From Atopobiaceae bacterium (GTDB taxonomy: Bacteria; Actinomycetota; Coriobacteriia; Coriobacteriales; Atopobiaceae), in NCBI GenBank assembly GCA_022483015.1, contig JAKVOB010000001.1, positions 1,078,902 to 1,142,901 on the forward strand: 64,000 nt of DNA. Reading direction: 5' to 3'. Positions within the stretch are counted from its first letter, which is position 1, and each line of letters opens with the position of its first letter. Both the position numbers and the translations under genes were made by a program. Positions 46,425-56,773 of this stretch are shown in pieces. The notes below the pieces were generated by a model, which saw only the letters and a list, made by a program, of their open reading frames with translations, was not told the DNA's origin and did no database searches.

Positions 46425-46463
46425 GCGAGGATGTGCCCTTGGGGCACGTACGGTAACGACGGG

Positions 46464-46493
46464 TTCCCGGGCGGGCGTCTGCCCGCCCGGGAA
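46464..46493 (+). other. Strong intra-operon stem-loop after the binding-protein gene
   Basis: Perfect 13-bp stem TTCCCGGGCGGGC / GCCCGCCCGGGAA with the 4-nt loop GTCT, ending 12 nt before the next start codon. No T-run follows. It is placed to stabilise the upstream mRNA or attenuate downstream expression. Confidence 0.75.
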
Positions 46494-46505
46494 TGGCGAA
46501 AGGCG

Positions 46506-47165
46506 ATGGCACAGATGAACCTCAAGGTCGACTCACCCCTCATCCAGGCTGGGATCAAGGTCACGAACCTGCTCATCCTGAACATCTATTGGATCCTGGG
46601 CTGCCTGCCGCTCATCACCATCGGCACCTCGACGATCGCGGCCTTCACCGTGTGCGAGAAGATGGCCGAGGACCGTGAGGGCATCGGCATGACGCGGGAG
46701 TTCTGGGGCGCCTACAAGGAGAACCTCAGGAACGGCATTCCGCTGACGCTTGTGTTCGCCGCCGGGGCCTATGCCGTCTGGTTCAACTTCCAGCTCTTCA
46801 ACAAGCTGCCCGACAACCCCATCTGGTTCCTCATCTTCGCGATCCTCATGGTCGTGCTCATGGTGGTGCACGGCCTCTATGCCTTCGCCCTCGAGGCTCG
46901 GTATGCCAACACCCTGCGCGGCAGCCTCGTGAACGCACGACTCATCTTCTTCCGCTTCTTCCCGCGCACCCTCGCGCTCGCCGGCATCCTCTTCATCCAG
47001 TGGCTCCTGTTCTTCCAGACGTCGACGGTCCTGGTCTACGTGGGCGTCTTCTGCGCGCCGATTCTCATGATCTACACGGCGAGCCAGATCTCTATGCCCA
47101 TCTTCCGCAAGCTCGAGCACAACAGCTACGCAAACGAGTCGCTCAGCGTGAGCGGTGACAACTAG
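46506..47165 (+). CDS. YesL-like (DUF624) membrane protein
   Basis: 219 aa with four to five helices. The DUF624 signature is clear: ILNIYWILGCLPLITIGTSTIAAFTVCEKM near the N-terminus, WGAYKENLRNGIPLTLV, then NTLRGSLVNARLIFFRFFPRTLALAGI. YesL-family genes are regularly found beside LplABC-type transporters in polysaccharide loci, but their function is unknown. The ATG at 46506 has AAAGG upstream, partly under the adjacent stem-loop, suggesting lower translation than the binding protein. Confidence 0.9.
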   Translation: MAQMNLKVDSPLIQAGIKVTNLLILNIYWILGCLPLITIGTSTIAAFTVCEKMAEDREGIGMTREFWGAYKENLRNGIPLTLVFAAGAYAVWFNFQLFNKLPDNPIWFLIFAILMVVLMVVHGLYAFALEARYANTLRGSLVNARLIFFRFFPRTLALAGILFIQWLLFFQTSTVLVYVGVFCAPILMIYTASQISMPIFRKLEHNSYANESLSVSGDN

Positions 47166-47185
47166 CCATGAAGGGAACCACTCGC

Positions 47186-49159
47186 ATGATCAAGGTCGGC
47201 ATAGACTACTACCCTGAGCACTGGGACCGCTCCATGTGGGAGACGGACGTCGCCACCATGGAGGCCATGGGCGTCGACGTGGTCCGCGTCGCCGAGTTCG
47301 CCTGGGGTGTGCTCGAGCCCGCTGACGGCAAGTTCGACTTCGGCTGGCTCGACGACGCCATCGACCTCATCGCGCGCCATGGCATGAAGGTCATCCTGGG
47401 CACCACCACCAACTGCGCGCCGCGCTGGCTCTATCAGAACCATCCGGACACCCTCCAGTGGGATGGTGACGGCCAGCCCACCAACCTCGGCGTCCGTGGG
47501 CACCGTTGCCAGGAGAGCACGACGTTCAGGACGTATGCCGCGCGTATCGTCACCGAGATGTGCAAGCGCTATGCGGGGCGCCCCGAGGTCTTCGCCTGGC
47601 AGATCGACAACGAGGTCGAGATCAACCACTGCACCTGCCCGACGTGCACGGCGCGCTTCCGCGAGTGGGTGGGGGAGAAGTACCATACGCTCGACGAGGT
47701 CAACAAGGCCTGGGGGACCGTCGTCTGGAGCGGCCAGTTCCAGAGCTGGGACCAGATCACGCCGCCGCTCATGCGGCAGGGCGAGGGCTTCAGCACCGGC
47801 TGGTACAACCCGGCCTACTACCTCGACTACGAGCGCTTCTGTGCCGACTCGACGGCTGGCTACGTGCGCTTCCAGTCGGACCTCATCCGCAGCTTCGACC
47901 CGGATGCGACCATCACCACCAACACCTGCTTCGGCGGGACCATGATGTGCGACCTCCACAAGGAGGCGGCAAGCCTCGACGTGGCCTCCTACGACAACTA
48001 CCCTCCCGTCTCGATTCCCGACGACGCGGAGGAGACCTATTCCAACGCCTTCGGCCTCGACCTCATCCGCGGCCTCAAGCAGGGCAACTTCTGGATCATG
48101 GAGCAGCTCGGCGGTCAGATGGGCTGCTGGGCACCCATCAGTCCTGCGCTCGAGCCGGGCATGCTCGAGGGGTACGGCCTCCAGGCCGTGGCCCATGGTG
48201 CCGACCTTCTCTCCTTCTTCCGCTGGCGCACGGCCTCGACGGGCGCCGAGATGTTCTGCCACGGCCTGCTCGACCATGCCGACAAGCCGAACAGTCGCAC
48301 CCGTGCGCTCGAGTCGCTCATCGCGCGCCTGGCCACCATGCCCGGGCTTGCCGATACCACCGCACATGCCCAGGTGGCCATGCTCTACGGTGCCGACCAG
48401 GAGTTCTCACTGCGTGACCAACCCCAGTCCGAGGACTACCACTACTGGACGCAGCTCAAGCTCATCCACGCGGCCTGCATGAACCTCGGCGTCGACGTCG
48501 ACGTCATCGACCAGGCGGCCGACCTCTCGGGCTATGACGTGGTGATCGCGCCGGAGCTCATGGTCTGTGACCCTGAGGTCGTGGCCCACCTGGAGGAGGC
48601 TGCGACGCGCGGCGCCTCCGTGGTCGTCACCTGCCGGAGCGGCGTCAAGGACATGAACGGCAACTGCATCGTGGGACAGTACCTTCCTACGCTCCTGGCC
48701 CCGCTCTGCGGGTGCCACGTGCTCGAGTACGACCCCATAGGACCTCGCCGGCAGACGCTCCGTACCGAAGGGGACGAGGAGTACTCGATCACGAGCTGGT
48801 GCGACCTCGTCGAGTGCGACACGGCCACGACCTGGGCCCGCTACGCCGACCGCTACTACGAGGGAACCCCTGCGGTCACGCGCAACGACTTCGGGAAGGG
48901 ACATGGCTGGTACGTGGGCTGCGTCGGCGAGAAGGCGCTCTACGTCCGGCTCCTTGCCGAGGTGTTCCGCGAGCAGGGCATCGGCACCACCACGGACGTC
49001 CCCCTCGGTGTCGAGATCTGCTCTCGCTCCGGCAAGGGAGGCACGTACACGTTCGTCTTCAACGACGCCATGGTCACCAACGAGCTCGACTTCGGCCCCG
49101 AGCACCTCGTGCTCGCGCCGCTCGAGGTCAAGGTCAAGACTGACGAGGGGTGGAAGTAA
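47186..49159 (+). CDS. GH42 beta-galactosidase
   Basis: 657 aa, cytoplasmic. GH42 TIM barrel: GIDYYPEHWDRSMWETDVATM at the start, acid/base Glu143 in FAWQIDNEVEIN, a cysteine cluster (HCTCPTC) that binds Zn in this family, and nucleophile Glu306 in FWIMEQLGGQMGCWAP. A trimerisation/beta domain follows. It hydrolyses terminal beta-galactosides such as the galactosyl side chains of plant oligosaccharides. The ATG at 47186 is preferred because AAGGGA lies about 9 nt upstream; an ATG at 47168, only 2 bp after the previous stop, lacks a site. Confidence 0.93.
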   Translation: MIKVGIDYYPEHWDRSMWETDVATMEAMGVDVVRVAEFAWGVLEPADGKFDFGWLDDAIDLIARHGMKVILGTTTNCAPRWLYQNHPDTLQWDGDGQPTNLGVRGHRCQESTTFRTYAARIVTEMCKRYAGRPEVFAWQIDNEVEINHCTCPTCTARFREWVGEKYHTLDEVNKAWGTVVWSGQFQSWDQITPPLMRQGEGFSTGWYNPAYYLDYERFCADSTAGYVRFQSDLIRSFDPDATITTNTCFGGTMMCDLHKEAASLDVASYDNYPPVSIPDDAEETYSNAFGLDLIRGLKQGNFWIMEQLGGQMGCWAPISPALEPGMLEGYGLQAVAHGADLLSFFRWRTASTGAEMFCHGLLDHADKPNSRTRALESLIARLATMPGLADTTAHAQVAMLYGADQEFSLRDQPQSEDYHYWTQLKLIHAACMNLGVDVDVIDQAADLSGYDVVIAPELMVCDPEVVAHLEEAATRGASVVVTCRSGVKDMNGNCIVGQYLPTLLAPLCGCHVLEYDPIGPRRQTLRTEGDEEYSITSWCDLVECDTATTWARYADRYYEGTPAVTRNDFGKGHGWYVGCVGEKALYVRLLAEVFREQGIGTTTDVPLGVEICSRSGKGGTYTFVFNDAMVTNELDFGPEHLVLAPLEVKVKTDEGWK

Positions 49160-49164
49160 CAGCC

Positions 49165-51120
49165 ATGAGCAGGCAGGAGGCCACAACCCAGTACGCGCAC
49201 GCCCTCAAGGAGGGCAAGCGTTGCTATCAGGAGTGCGTGCGCTCTGGTCGCTATCCCTACCTGCAGGTCCTCGACGAGATCCTGGCTGGTACCGAGACCC
49301 AGGGCCGCGTCGACCTCGGTCAGGTCGAGATTCCCATCGACCGCATCGCCGGGACCAAGGAGGCCGGGAGGGAGACCGCCTTCGCGGCGAACTTCATGCC
49401 CCTGCTCGCGGCGTCCACCGAGTTCGGCATGAAGTGGACCAGCCTGTGCGAGGCACACCTGGGCGAGTCGGGCATCCAGGACCCGATCCGTGCCTACGAG
49501 TACATGGGCCGCTTCTACGTGCAGGAGGGCAACAAGCGCGTCAGCGTCATGAAGAGCTTCGGCGCCATGTCCATCACCGGTCAGGTGACGCGCATCGTCC
49601 CTATGTGGTCCGACGACCTCGAGACCCGCGTCTACTTCGAGTACCTCCACTTCTATGAGCTCTCTGGCGTGTGCCAGGTCCACTTCAACGGCGTCGGTGG
49701 CTATGCCAAGATCCAGGCTGCCCTGGGGTTCGACGCGGACCACGTGTGGAGCGCGGCCGAGCGCCGTGCCTTCATCTCGGAGTACTACCGCTTCAAGCGT
49801 GCCATCGCGCCTCTGGACCTCGACGAGCGGCAGGTGACCTGTGGCGAGGCACTGCTCGTGTGGCTCCAGGTCTACACGCTCGATGACCTCAGGACCATGA
49901 CGCCGGCCGCCCTCGCTGCGTCCGTCGTCGCCGTGCGCAAGGACATCGAGGCCGTGGGGACAGGCGGTCCCATCTCGGTCAACACGGAGCCGAACTCCGT
50001 GGACCAGGGGGTCGTGGGTCGCATCATCGGTTCGGTCTCCTCGCACAGCGTGCTCAAGGTGGCCTTCGTCTTCGAGGCGTCCCCTGCCGAGAGCCTCTCC
50101 GTCGCGGGACACGTGGAGGGAATGCGCCACCTCGAGCAGACGCTCGAGAGCCGCGTGCGGGTCTCGGCCTACTACGCGTCCAGGACGGTCCCGGTCGAGG
50201 ATGCCCTCGCGTGGGCGGCCGAGGACGGCGCGGACCTGCTGGTGGTCACGAGCCCCAACCTCGTGATGGCCTGCCGCAAGGTCGCCGCCGCATATCCCAG
50301 GCTCCGCGTGCTCGACTGCTCGGTCGCCCTGCCGTACGCCGGTGTGCGCACCTTCTCCTGCCGCGAGTACGAGACCTCCTTCATCGCCGGTGCCCTCGCG
50401 GGTGCCATGGCCGGTTCCGAGCCTGTGGGCCTCATCGCCGGCGTGCCCACGATGGGCGTCCCGGCCGCGGTGAACGCCTTCGCCCTGGGCGTCCAGCTCG
50501 TCTCTCCTGCCACGCGGGTGCTCCTCGGGTGGTCCGGTGCCCCGGGTGACGCCTTCGACGGGCTCCTGCAGCGCGGTGTCAAGGTCATCTCGAACTGCGA
50601 GGTGCCCCTCTCGGCGCAGCAGCAGGAGTACGAGGGCCTGTGCAAGGTCGACGACGCGGGTCTCACGACGCTTGCGGTCCCGCATCTCAACTGGGGCGTC
50701 TTCTATGTGCGGCTCGTCACCTCCATCCTGAGCGGCACCTGGGACGCGTTGCAGGCGCAGAGCGGCACGGCCGCGGTGAGCTACTGGTGGGGGATCGCTG
50801 CCGGCGTCATCGACCTCGAGGTAGGTCCTTCCACCCCCGACGGCCCCGCGCACCTGGTCGACCTGCTGCGTGATGGCATCGCCACCGACCGCGTGCAGGT
50901 CTTCCGCAGGCGCGTGGTCAGGCGGGACGGCAGCGTCTTCAACGACGGCAGCCGCTGGCCCACCACGGACGAGGTCCTCAACATGGGCTGGCTCTGCAAG
51001 GGCATCGAGGGTACGCTCCCCGGTCTCGACGAGCTGCGTCCCGAGGCCCGCGAGCTCGTGCGGGTGCAGGGCGTCAACCGCGCGGACTTCCCGCCCGAGA
51101 AGGGAGGGCAGCTCGTATGA
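49165..51120 (+). CDS. Cytoplasmic fusion of a ParB-like domain and a BMP (PnrA/Med) ligand-binding domain
   Basis: 651 aa without signal peptide or membrane helix. Residues about 40-150 contain a ParB-like nuclease-fold segment (IPIDRIAGTKEAGRETAFAA, DPIRAYEYMGRFYVQEGNKRVSVMK). A helical region follows to about 270. From about 295 a BMP-family sugar/nucleoside-binding fold begins (LKVAFVFEASPAESLSVAGHVEGM, ADLLVVTSPNLVMAC, FIAGALAGAMAGSEPVGLIAG, GVKVISNC). BMP proteins are usually exported lipoproteins, so an intracellular copy suggests a sensor or regulator. It begins 5 bp after the galactosidase stop and overlaps the next gene (ATGA). Confidence 0.8.
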   Translation: MSRQEATTQYAHALKEGKRCYQECVRSGRYPYLQVLDEILAGTETQGRVDLGQVEIPIDRIAGTKEAGRETAFAANFMPLLAASTEFGMKWTSLCEAHLGESGIQDPIRAYEYMGRFYVQEGNKRVSVMKSFGAMSITGQVTRIVPMWSDDLETRVYFEYLHFYELSGVCQVHFNGVGGYAKIQAALGFDADHVWSAAERRAFISEYYRFKRAIAPLDLDERQVTCGEALLVWLQVYTLDDLRTMTPAALAASVVAVRKDIEAVGTGGPISVNTEPNSVDQGVVGRIIGSVSSHSVLKVAFVFEASPAESLSVAGHVEGMRHLEQTLESRVRVSAYYASRTVPVEDALAWAAEDGADLLVVTSPNLVMACRKVAAAYPRLRVLDCSVALPYAGVRTFSCREYETSFIAGALAGAMAGSEPVGLIAGVPTMGVPAAVNAFALGVQLVSPATRVLLGWSGAPGDAFDGLLQRGVKVISNCEVPLSAQQQEYEGLCKVDDAGLTTLAVPHLNWGVFYVRLVTSILSGTWDALQAQSGTAAVSYWWGIAAGVIDLEVGPSTPDGPAHLVDLLRDGIATDRVQVFRRRVVRRDGSVFNDGSRWPTTDEVLNMGWLCKGIEGTLPGLDELRPEARELVRVQGVNRADFPPEKGGQLV

Positions 51121-51707
51121 GGATGCTTGCGGTGTCCGACAAGGAGAGCGCCTACCTGTGGGACTACTACCAGCCCGGGGTGCTCGACGGCATCGACCTC
51201 ATCGTGTCGTGCGGTGACCTCTCGGCCGAGTACCTCTCGTTCTTGGCCACGATGGGCAACGTCCCCGTGCTCTACGTGCCGGGGAACCACGACGGGTCCT
51301 ACCTCAGGAAGCCTCCCGAGGGATGCGAGTGCGTGGACGACCGCCTGGTCACCGTTGGCGGCGTGCGCATCCTGGGCCTCGGGGGCAGCGCCTCCTACAA
51401 CGGCGGGCCCTACCAGTACGACGAGTCCCAGATGCGGCGGCGCATCAGGCGGCAGGAGCTCCACATCAGGAGGGCGCACGGGGTGGACGTGATTCTCACC
51501 CATGCGTCCCCGCGGGGGATCGGTGATGCGGACGACGTGGCGCATCGGGGTTTCGAGGCGTTCCTGCCCCTGCTCGAGCGCACGAAGCCACGCTATCTGA
51601 TCCACGGGCACGTGCATCTGAACTACGGCCAGCAGATTCAACGGACCCAGCGCGATGGTCCGACGACGATAGTCAACGCGTTCGAACGGTACGTGGTGGA
51701 ACTGTAA
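51117..51707 (+). CDS. Calcineurin-like metallophosphoesterase
   Basis: 196 aa. Metal-site motifs in order: MLAVSD (first Asp; the usual xH of DxH is replaced by KE), SCGDLS, VPGNHDGSYL, LTHASPRG, and HGHVHLNYG, giving a near-complete YfcE/MJ0936-like phosphodiesterase core. Its ATG overlaps the stop of the BMP fusion by 4 nt (ATGA), indicating translational coupling and probably a shared task. The substrate (phospho-sugar, cyclic nucleotide or other) is unknown. The first DxH is DKE here, which may alter metal use. Confidence 0.85.
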   Translation: MRMLAVSDKESAYLWDYYQPGVLDGIDLIVSCGDLSAEYLSFLATMGNVPVLYVPGNHDGSYLRKPPEGCECVDDRLVTVGGVRILGLGGSASYNGGPYQYDESQMRRRIRRQELHIRRAHGVDVILTHASPRGIGDADDVAHRGFEAFLPLLERTKPRYLIHGHVHLNYGQQIQRTQRDGPTTIVNAFERYVVEL

Positions 51708-51747: not shown

Positions 51748-52944
<1,197 letters not shown>

Positions 52945-55351: not shown

Positions 55352-56773
55352 ATGTCAGAGGTTCGGCTTCCGGAGGGGTTCTTCCTGGGTGCGGCGATGT
55401 CCGCCGCGCAGGTCGAGGGTGCAAGGTCGGTGGGCGGCAAGCTGCCGAGCACCTGGGACCTGTGGAGCGACCTCGCCCTGGAGGACTTCCACAACCATGT
55501 GGGCTCCGACCTGGGAAACGACTTCTACCATCGCTATGAGTCGGACCTCGACCTGCTCAAGGGCCTGGGGCTCACGTCCTTCCGCACCTCGATATCATGG
55601 AGCCGCCTGCTCGACCAGGATGGCAACATCAACCCCGAGGGTGCGGCCTTCTACCATCGGCTCTTCGCCTATGCGGCCAGGATCGGCCTCGAGGTCTTCG
55701 TGACCCTGTACCACTTCGACCTGCCGGCCTACCTCTTCAGGCGGGGCGGCTGGGAGTCGCGCGACACGGTCGAGGCCTTCTCGAGCTATGCCTCACGGGT
55801 GTTCGCCGAGTTCGGCCAGGAGGTGCGCTACTGGTTCACCTTCAACGAGCCGATCGTGGAGCCCGAGAACCGCTACCTCTATGGCGGCTGGTATCCGTTC
55901 GTTCATGACTTCGGGCGCTGCCGTCGGGCGCAGTACCATATCTCGCTCGCCCACTCCCTGGGCGTCTACCAGTTCAGGCGTGCCCAAGAGGCCGGCGTCG
56001 TGCGCGATGACGCCATGATAGGCCTCGTGAGCAGCTTTGCCCCTGCCTACACCAGGGACGACCCGAGCGATGCCGACCTCGAGGCACTCCGCATGTCCGA
56101 CGGGCTTGCCAACCGCTGGTGGCTCGACCTCGTGTGCAAGGGCACCCTGCCGTCGGACGTCATCGACCCGATCGAGGCGTCTGGCGTGGACCTCGACCGG
56201 CGCCCGGGCGACGATGCGGTGCTGGCGCTGGGCACGGTCGACTGGCTTGGGTGCAACTACTACCAGCCCAATCGCGTCCAGGCACCGGCACGCACGAAGG
56301 GCGACGACGGCCAGCCGATCTTCGCCGACCCCTACATCTGGCCCGATCGCGTCATGAACGAGAGCCGCGGGTGGGAGGTCTATCCCAAGGGCCTCTATGA
56401 CTTCGGCCTCAAGATCCGCGACGAGTACCCCGGCCTTGCGTGGTACGTCTCCGAGAACGGCATGGGCATCGAGGGCGAGTCCGCACACCGCGACGAGGCG
56501 GGCACCATCCAGGACGGCTATCGCATCGACTTCACGGCCGGTCACCTTGCCTGGCTGGTCAAGGCCATCGAGGAGGGGAGCGACTGCCGCGGCTACCACT
56601 CGTGGGGCGTCATCGACAACTGGTCATGGGACCACGCCTACAAGAACCGTTACGGCTTCATCGAGGTCGACCTCGACCACGACCTCGAGCGCAGGCCCAA
56701 GGCCTCCGCGGCCTGGCTCAAGGAGGTCTGCCGCACGAGGGGCTTCGAGTGGGATCCGGAGGTGGCTCGATGA
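55352..56773 (+). CDS. GH1 beta-glycosidase, probably 6-phospho-beta-glucosidase
   Basis: 473 aa from the ATG at 55352 (GGGAGAG upstream; ATGs at 55310 and 55340 are possible). GH1 signatures: PEGFFLGAAMSAAQVEG, acid/base Glu166 in WFTFNEP, nucleophile Glu368 in YVSENGMG. In DNWSWDHAYKNRY the position that is Glu in sugar-cleaving GH1 enzymes is Ser425, with Tyr434 also present. That pattern marks 6-phospho-glycosidases (S...K-x-Y), although the usual Lys position is Asn here with a Lys beside it. The direct ATGA coupling to a PTS EIIC gene supports a phosphorylated disaccharide substrate. Plain beta-glucosidase remains possible. Confidence 0.87.
   Translation: MSEVRLPEGFFLGAAMSAAQVEGARSVGGKLPSTWDLWSDLALEDFHNHVGSDLGNDFYHRYESDLDLLKGLGLTSFRTSISWSRLLDQDGNINPEGAAFYHRLFAYAARIGLEVFVTLYHFDLPAYLFRRGGWESRDTVEAFSSYASRVFAEFGQEVRYWFTFNEPIVEPENRYLYGGWYPFVHDFGRCRRAQYHISLAHSLGVYQFRRAQEAGVVRDDAMIGLVSSFAPAYTRDDPSDADLEALRMSDGLANRWWLDLVCKGTLPSDVIDPIEASGVDLDRRPGDDAVLALGTVDWLGCNYYQPNRVQAPARTKGDDGQPIFADPYIWPDRVMNESRGWEVYPKGLYDFGLKIRDEYPGLAWYVSENGMGIEGESAHRDEAGTIQDGYRIDFTAGHLAWLVKAIEEGSDCRGYHSWGVIDNWSWDHAYKNRYGFIEVDLDHDLERRPKASAAWLKEVCRTRGFEWDPEVAR

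Follow-up and report, generated by a model that had tools for sequence, protein, structure and literature searches.

Genes A and B, two adjacent genes in the 64,000-nucleotide stretch of Atopobiaceae DNA analysed here (the window), encode a ParB/Srx-fold protein with a C-terminal BMP-type domain and a metallophosphoesterase. They belong to a two-gene system that extends across two phyla and is apparently undescribed. The core of the system is the ParB fold together with the phosphoesterase, and the BMP domain is one among several exchangeable modules. Computation here shows the ParB fold, the constant association of the two genes, a natural gene fusion, the exchange of modules and the recurring sugar genes nearby. 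We tentatively read A and B as a cytoplasmic two-protein module of carbohydrate or energy metabolism, in which a sensor-gated nucleotide switch would control its own phosphoesterase.

Both reading frames are open and share an ATGA at the stop of A and the start of B, so the coordinates and the overlap agree with the preliminary description of this DNA (Table 1). Its placement of the pair between a galactosidase and a transport ATPase also holds, with the GH42 gene upstream and the MsmK/UgpC-type ATPase gene downstream.

Table 1. Features of the A-B pair and its neighbours in the window (residue numbers are those of the respective protein).
Feature	Position	Strand	Basis or remark
Gene A	49165..51120	+	651 aa; ParB/Srx-fold domain, helical region, BMP-type domain; no signal peptide
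Start and stop of A	ATG 49165; stop 51118-51120	+
Gene B	51117..51707	+	196 aa metallophosphoesterase; PF00149 and PF12850 above cut-off
Start and stop of B	ATG 51117; stop 51705-51707	+
ATGA, overlap of B start and A stop	51117..51120	+	sequence; 4-nt overlap in 38/50 clostridial pairs
Shine-Dalgarno-like GGGAGGG for B, within A	51102..51108	+	sequence; 8 bases 5' of the B start
Conserved N-terminal core of A, residues 1-265	49165..49959	+	common to BMP-less relatives
ParB/Srx-fold part of A, residues ~49-147	49309..49605	+	model pLDDT 91.6; fold matches Noc, ParB, sulfiredoxin, SerK, SbnI
EGNKRVSV, residues 121-128, counterpart of the ParB GxxR phosphate motif	49525..49548	+	invariant residues in 38 relatives
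BMP-type ligand-binding domain of A, residues 294-620	50044..51024	+	PF02608; 6pi5, 3s99; pocket comparison
Motif I of B, D8-K9-E10 (D-x-E instead of D-x-H)	51138..51146	+	comparison with relatives
GH42 beta-galactosidase, 5 nt 5' of A	47168..49159	+	PF02449
MsmK/UgpC-type sugar ABC ATPase, 40 nt 3' of B	51748..52944	+	NCBIfam UgpC model above cut-off; Pfam
GH1 glycosidase, same gene run	55355..56773	+	PF00232

Domain structure of A and B

The N-terminal part of A adopts a ParB-like fold. A model of residues 1-287, built from 33 relatives, reaches a pLDDT of 91.6, and its best Foldseek match is Noc (E 7e-5, probability 1.00). The matches at E <0.001 are exclusively ParB/Noc structures, with sulfiredoxin close behind. 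In VIA structural alignment, residues ~49-147 superpose on ParB, Noc, sulfiredoxin, SerK and SbnI (highest Z 8.3); a Z of 8 is by itself modest, and the homogeneous match list adds weight. In the profile alignment, the EGNKR segment of A falls on the GERR (GxxR) loop of ParB, and Glu121, Gly122, Lys124, Arg125, Ser127 and Val128 are invariant among 38 relatives. Distant relatives carry DGHHR or DGNHR at the same position, with the Gly and the Arg still invariant. When the profile of the A N-terminus is compared directly with that of genuine ParB proteins, the two line up in register, although with weak statistics (P 0.012 and 0.001).

Sequence models do not capture this domain. The N-terminal part is recognised by none of the Pfam or NCBIfam models, PF02195 and TIGR00180 included; two relatives score 13.5 and 15.7 bits with PF02195, against a cut-off of 26.3, and a profile search of PDB sequences gives no credible match. 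A has no Pfam match to an HTH or a ParB dimerisation domain, no parA-type gene lies beside the window pair, and the true parB of the window's genome occupies a separate locus (G000:C1:506334). The ParB-like segment on which the preliminary description staked its reading is therefore borne out by the model, Foldseek and VIA, not by Pfam.

ParB-type folds bind CTP, ATP or GTP (PMC12704722). The survey of this fold relied on PF02195, TIGR00180 and a KOfam model for its searches, and its main text mentions neither BMP domains nor phosphoesterases (PMC12704722); as the A domain matches neither PF02195 nor TIGR00180, its absence from the survey would be explained. In its fold and its invariant GxxR loop, A resembles the ParB-CTPase fold proteins (ParB, Noc, sulfiredoxin, SerK, SbnI and orphan fusions), for which fusion to lineage-specific domains is typical, as in A. 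Unlike them, it is missed by both models, shows no HTH and has a constant phosphoesterase partner.

In A, 290 residues that belong to another domain precede the BMP domain. PF02608 matches residues 298-462 with 47.1 bits (gathering cut-off 24.1), and residues 294-619 align with PDB entries 6pi5 (AtzT; E 1e-22) and 3s99 (Brucella; E 1e-17). A signal peptide, a lipobox and a hydrophobic N-terminus are all absent from A, in which the top 19-residue hydropathy among windows starting within the first 40 residues is 0.17. These results agree with the earlier view of a BMP domain without export signal, fused behind a ParB-like segment. A fragment of a transport lipoprotein or a mis-assigned start is ruled out by the Pfam architecture, the model and the hydropathy.

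In AtzT, the closest BMP structure, guanine is sandwiched between Tyr45 and Trp194 and bound via Ser97, Glu165, Asn218 and Asn220 (PMC6834077). The stacking position of this pocket corresponds in A to Trp312, present in 36 of 38 relatives and replaced by Ser in the window and by Glu in the sister genome. Ser97 is kept as Ser363 of A. Glu165, Asn220 and Trp194 are not conserved, so the BMP ligand of A is probably not guanine; ligand prediction from AtzT fails, as the key guanine ligands differ. A is thus like BMP proteins in its full-length domain match, the kept Ser and the stacking Trp of most relatives, and unlike them in being cytoplasmic, signal-less and fused to a ParB fold, in the lost guanine ligands and, in the window copy, in the Ser at the stacking site. 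Between the window and the sister genome, identity is 52% in the BMP domain and 80% in the ParB-like part. Within the window's genus, the BMP domain is more diverged than the ParB-like part, and the pocket of the window copy is altered.

B is a calcineurin-like phosphoesterase, as first proposed, and scores above the PF00149 cut-off. Among 90 sequences, Asp8, GDL, GNHD, His129 and GHxH are invariant; motif I reads D-x-E in 84 and D-x-P in 6. The third motif I residue of 41 distant B relatives is Val, Glu, Arg, Ile, Pro or Thr, and never His. The "altered" DKE motif pointed out in the preliminary description is real but not peculiar to the window copy, since the His is absent from every member read. 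Motif I without the His is a family signature of B. A damaged or inactive enzyme is ruled out as an explanation of DKE because the loss of the His is family-wide and the remaining motifs are invariant. B shares the fold and motifs II-V with other calcineurin-like metallophosphoesterases (PF00149; MPPED2, Dbr1). Its subfamily differs from other PF00149 proteins in the absent motif I His and in the ParB-fold partner that adjoins it in the full-length cases examined, single exceptions aside.

Fixed pairing and exchangeable modules

A and B are conserved together. One scan of genome contigs yields 54 loci with A. Contig ends truncate two of these (L032, L053), and L055 is a fusion; the 51 assessable clostridial loci comprise 50 with B and one without (L049). 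In those 50, B lies 3' of A on the same strand, with a 4-nt overlap in 38. The exception, L049 (2727-4727), is the sole examined clostridial A without an adjoining phosphoesterase and is divergent, on a long branch. In the window's own family (140 genomes), A is matched in 83 and B is found in 81, and the same 81 carry both; G087 and G125, with weak matches via BMP only, are excluded as non-members. Loss of joint conservation, which would have spoken against a functional unit in the preliminary description, is thus not what the genomes show.

Nearly every carrier has just one copy of the pair. Among genomes with two copies, G036 (L087, L147) holds one Oscillospiraceae-type and one family-type copy. 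G122 (L066, L145) holds a BMP copy and a BMP-less copy, the latter beside a phosphoesterase, MsmK and GH32. A tree built from 41 A proteins separates the window's A from the usual version of its own family; together with the sister and one further family genome, it nests inside Oscillospiraceae (support 100/97 and 99/96). This strongly supported nesting indicates that the window copy was acquired horizontally from an Oscillospiraceae-like donor.

An N-terminal profile search of 396 Actinomycetota genomes retrieves distant A relatives that lack the BMP domain. By hhalign, the N-terminal parts of the BMP and BMP-less groups share homology along 186 columns (99%, E 9e-18). A B-family phosphoesterase lies directly upstream on the same strand in 18 of 28 distant BMP-less Actinomycetota loci, the BMP-less form having the phosphoesterase first. 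Among 398 Bacillota genomes, 18 full-length A relatives were examined, five with and 13 without BMP, and a B relative stands beside all 18. Most relatives without a phosphoesterase neighbour (e.g., L129, L153, L154, L200 and L201) are short, with frames of <190 residues. One ParB-like relative from an actinobacterium, L138 (3007-3858), has no phosphoesterase neighbour and adjoins a gene for an MsmK-type ATPase that is read from the opposite strand.

Eight of the 13 BMP-less Bacillota proteins carry C-terminal ferredoxin-type cysteine (4Fe-4S) motifs, and Pfam confirms a ferredoxin-type domain in L210, L211 and L212, the three of the eight that were scanned. In one Erysipelotrichaceae locus (L055, 2893-4263), the ParB-like domain is fused straight to the phosphoesterase without BMP; the model of this fusion has a pTM of 0.67, and its domain arrangement was left unused. 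The BMP domain therefore does not keep the central place first given to it, since it is missing from many relatives and a ferredoxin-type domain takes its position in some. As BMP-less forms exist, BMP ligand binding is not needed for the core.

Among the side observations, the 4Fe-4S-bearing loci are L189, L192, L193 and L195-L199, and also L204, L207, L208 and L210-L214, and a SIR2-family gene follows the ParB-like gene on its 3' side in L204, L211 and L212. In two 4Fe-4S Bacillota relatives, the helical region narrowly exceeds the Pfam cut-off for DUF4032 (PF13224; 26.0 and 25.4 versus 23.8), unlike the N-terminal part of the window's A, which has no match to it. Among the papers covered, a literature search on DUF4032 found none, nor did one on the combination of BMP, ParB and phosphoesterase.

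Carbohydrate genes around the pair

Genes of sugar metabolism recur around the pair in its own family. A distinct galactokinase paralogue (PF10509; e.g., L101 6533-7786), with >60% identity to the query versus 35-44% for the common galactokinase, occurs in 34 own-family genomes, all of them pair carriers, and lies within 6 kb of the pair in 29. MsmK lies within 6 kb of the pair in 10 genomes, versus ~0.5 copies expected at random placement; the MsmK list covers pair-carrying genomes, and both the galactokinase and the MsmK figures ignore relatedness and come from six genera in each case. Most of the ABC ATPases that were grouped together have only ~31-36% identity to MsmK. GH36, galT and GH32 (Pfam-confirmed) also recur near the own-family pair, as do sucrose-phosphorylase-like and MalQ-like genes (named by eye). 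Coriobacteriia repeatedly have the module within loci for galactose, galactoside or sucrose and next to MsmK, the shared ABC ATPase. In the window, a MusI-family-like membrane protein gene lies directly 5' of the GH42 gene (46431-47165; 80.7 bits, below the cut-off of 160).

Three distant Actinomycetota (L132, L148 and L151) have GH13 next to the pair, and the L055 fusion lies near a MalQ-like gene and a weaker GH13 match. Among BMP-less Bacillota, an amidohydrolase gene (NagA-like by eye) is directly upstream twice, and the surroundings include a glucosamine-isomerase family gene and an extracellular solute-binding protein. The BMP-less pairs L202, L203, L205, L206 and L209 lie near a Rex-like redox regulator, the Pfam check of which covered L205, and most also near an endonuclease III-like gene.

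Most clostridial BMP loci have no sugar genes nearby, which rules out a sugar locus as a general rule for Clostridia. A genuine carbohydrate link of the pair exists in certain lineages but does not extend to all. Conservation across sugar loci, named in the preliminary description as a check, is accordingly found in Coriobacteriia and some other lineages and fails in most Clostridia. The same distribution does not establish control of import by the pair.

Candidate functions of the pair

A cytoplasmic ligand-gated enzyme or signalling unit, as suggested at the outset, is still the most sensible reading, given that the genes are conserved together and the ParB/Srx fold is present. The EGNKR loop in the ParB/Srx-fold domain of A is most likely a binding site for a nucleoside triphosphate. 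The C-terminal module of A, a BMP clamp for a small molecule here and a 4Fe-4S domain or nothing elsewhere, would set the state of the ParB-fold domain, which in turn may gate B by direct contact. B would be a dedicated metal-dependent phosphoesterase, with a nucleotide or a phosphorylated metabolite as its substrate. The anatomy fits this scheme, as a sensory switch is expected to look like a fixed core with exchangeable C-terminal modules; the constant partner of the core is an enzyme, and therefore the enzyme is the likely output. Because the module recurs in coriobacterial sugar loci and beside MsmK, this output would probably adjust carbohydrate or energy metabolism.

With somewhat greater reserve, we propose that the pair may represent an undescribed signalling system of Bacillota and Actinomycetota, composed of a ParB-fold nucleotide switch, exchangeable ligand or redox sensors and a phosphoesterase output without the motif I His, which tunes carbohydrate or energy metabolism. 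The ParB-CTPase fold, recently seen as a general NTP-binding module, is here tied to one enzyme family over large evolutionary distances, and A-B allows a direct test of whether a ParB-type switch can act through an enzyme, away from DNA segregation. If the scheme holds, there would also be cytoplasmic sensors among the proteins annotated as BMP transport binding proteins.

SerK and SbnI among the fold matches of A suggest another arrangement, in which A is a small-molecule kinase of this kind and B the opposing phosphatase, so that A and B together would determine how much of a phosphorylated metabolite is present, under allosteric control by the BMP or 4Fe-4S module. The constant phosphoesterase partner suits such a pair, DGHHR is present in distant A relatives, and one distant relative alone weakly matches the SerK and SbnI equivalog models (16.3 and 13.6 bits; E 0.004 and 0.03). 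These scores are far under the curated cut-offs of 380 and 350, and the SerK and SbnI fold matches are no better than those to ParB, Noc and sulfiredoxin; we regard this arrangement as unlikely.

In six genera of the family, the pair is closely linked to galT, GH36 and the galactokinase paralogue; this linkage and the GH42 and MsmK genes of the window could instead point to a house-cleaning role. B would hydrolyse a phosphorylated by-product that arises in sugar catabolism and is toxic or damaged (e.g., a sugar phosphate or nucleotide sugar), with A as a regulatory or substrate-presenting subunit. This role would leave the ParB fold and the 4Fe-4S variant unexplained, and many carriers have no sugar genes nearby, which makes it improbable.

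The nearest solved relatives of B in both sequence and fold are MPPED2 and Dbr1, at ~15% identity, too distant to name a substrate. They raise the idea that the substrate of B is RNA or a nucleotide second messenger, with B working like Dbr1, MPPED2 or a cyclic-nucleotide phosphodiesterase and A sensing the nucleotide state. Motif I of B is unlike that of both: in Dbr1, Cys replaces the Asp (PMC4176325), whereas B keeps the Asp and lacks the His. We consider an RNA or second-messenger substrate distinctly improbable.

Compared with the sensor-gated switch that we prefer, a role in anti-phage defence is very improbable: B matches most of the PADLOC model PDC-S10 (59.1 bits, E 8.7e-17; no curated cut-off is given), which is listed as a candidate model and whose match may reflect the common phosphoesterase fold, A has no PADLOC match, and the pair, rarely present in more than one copy, has metabolic neighbours wherever these are annotated.
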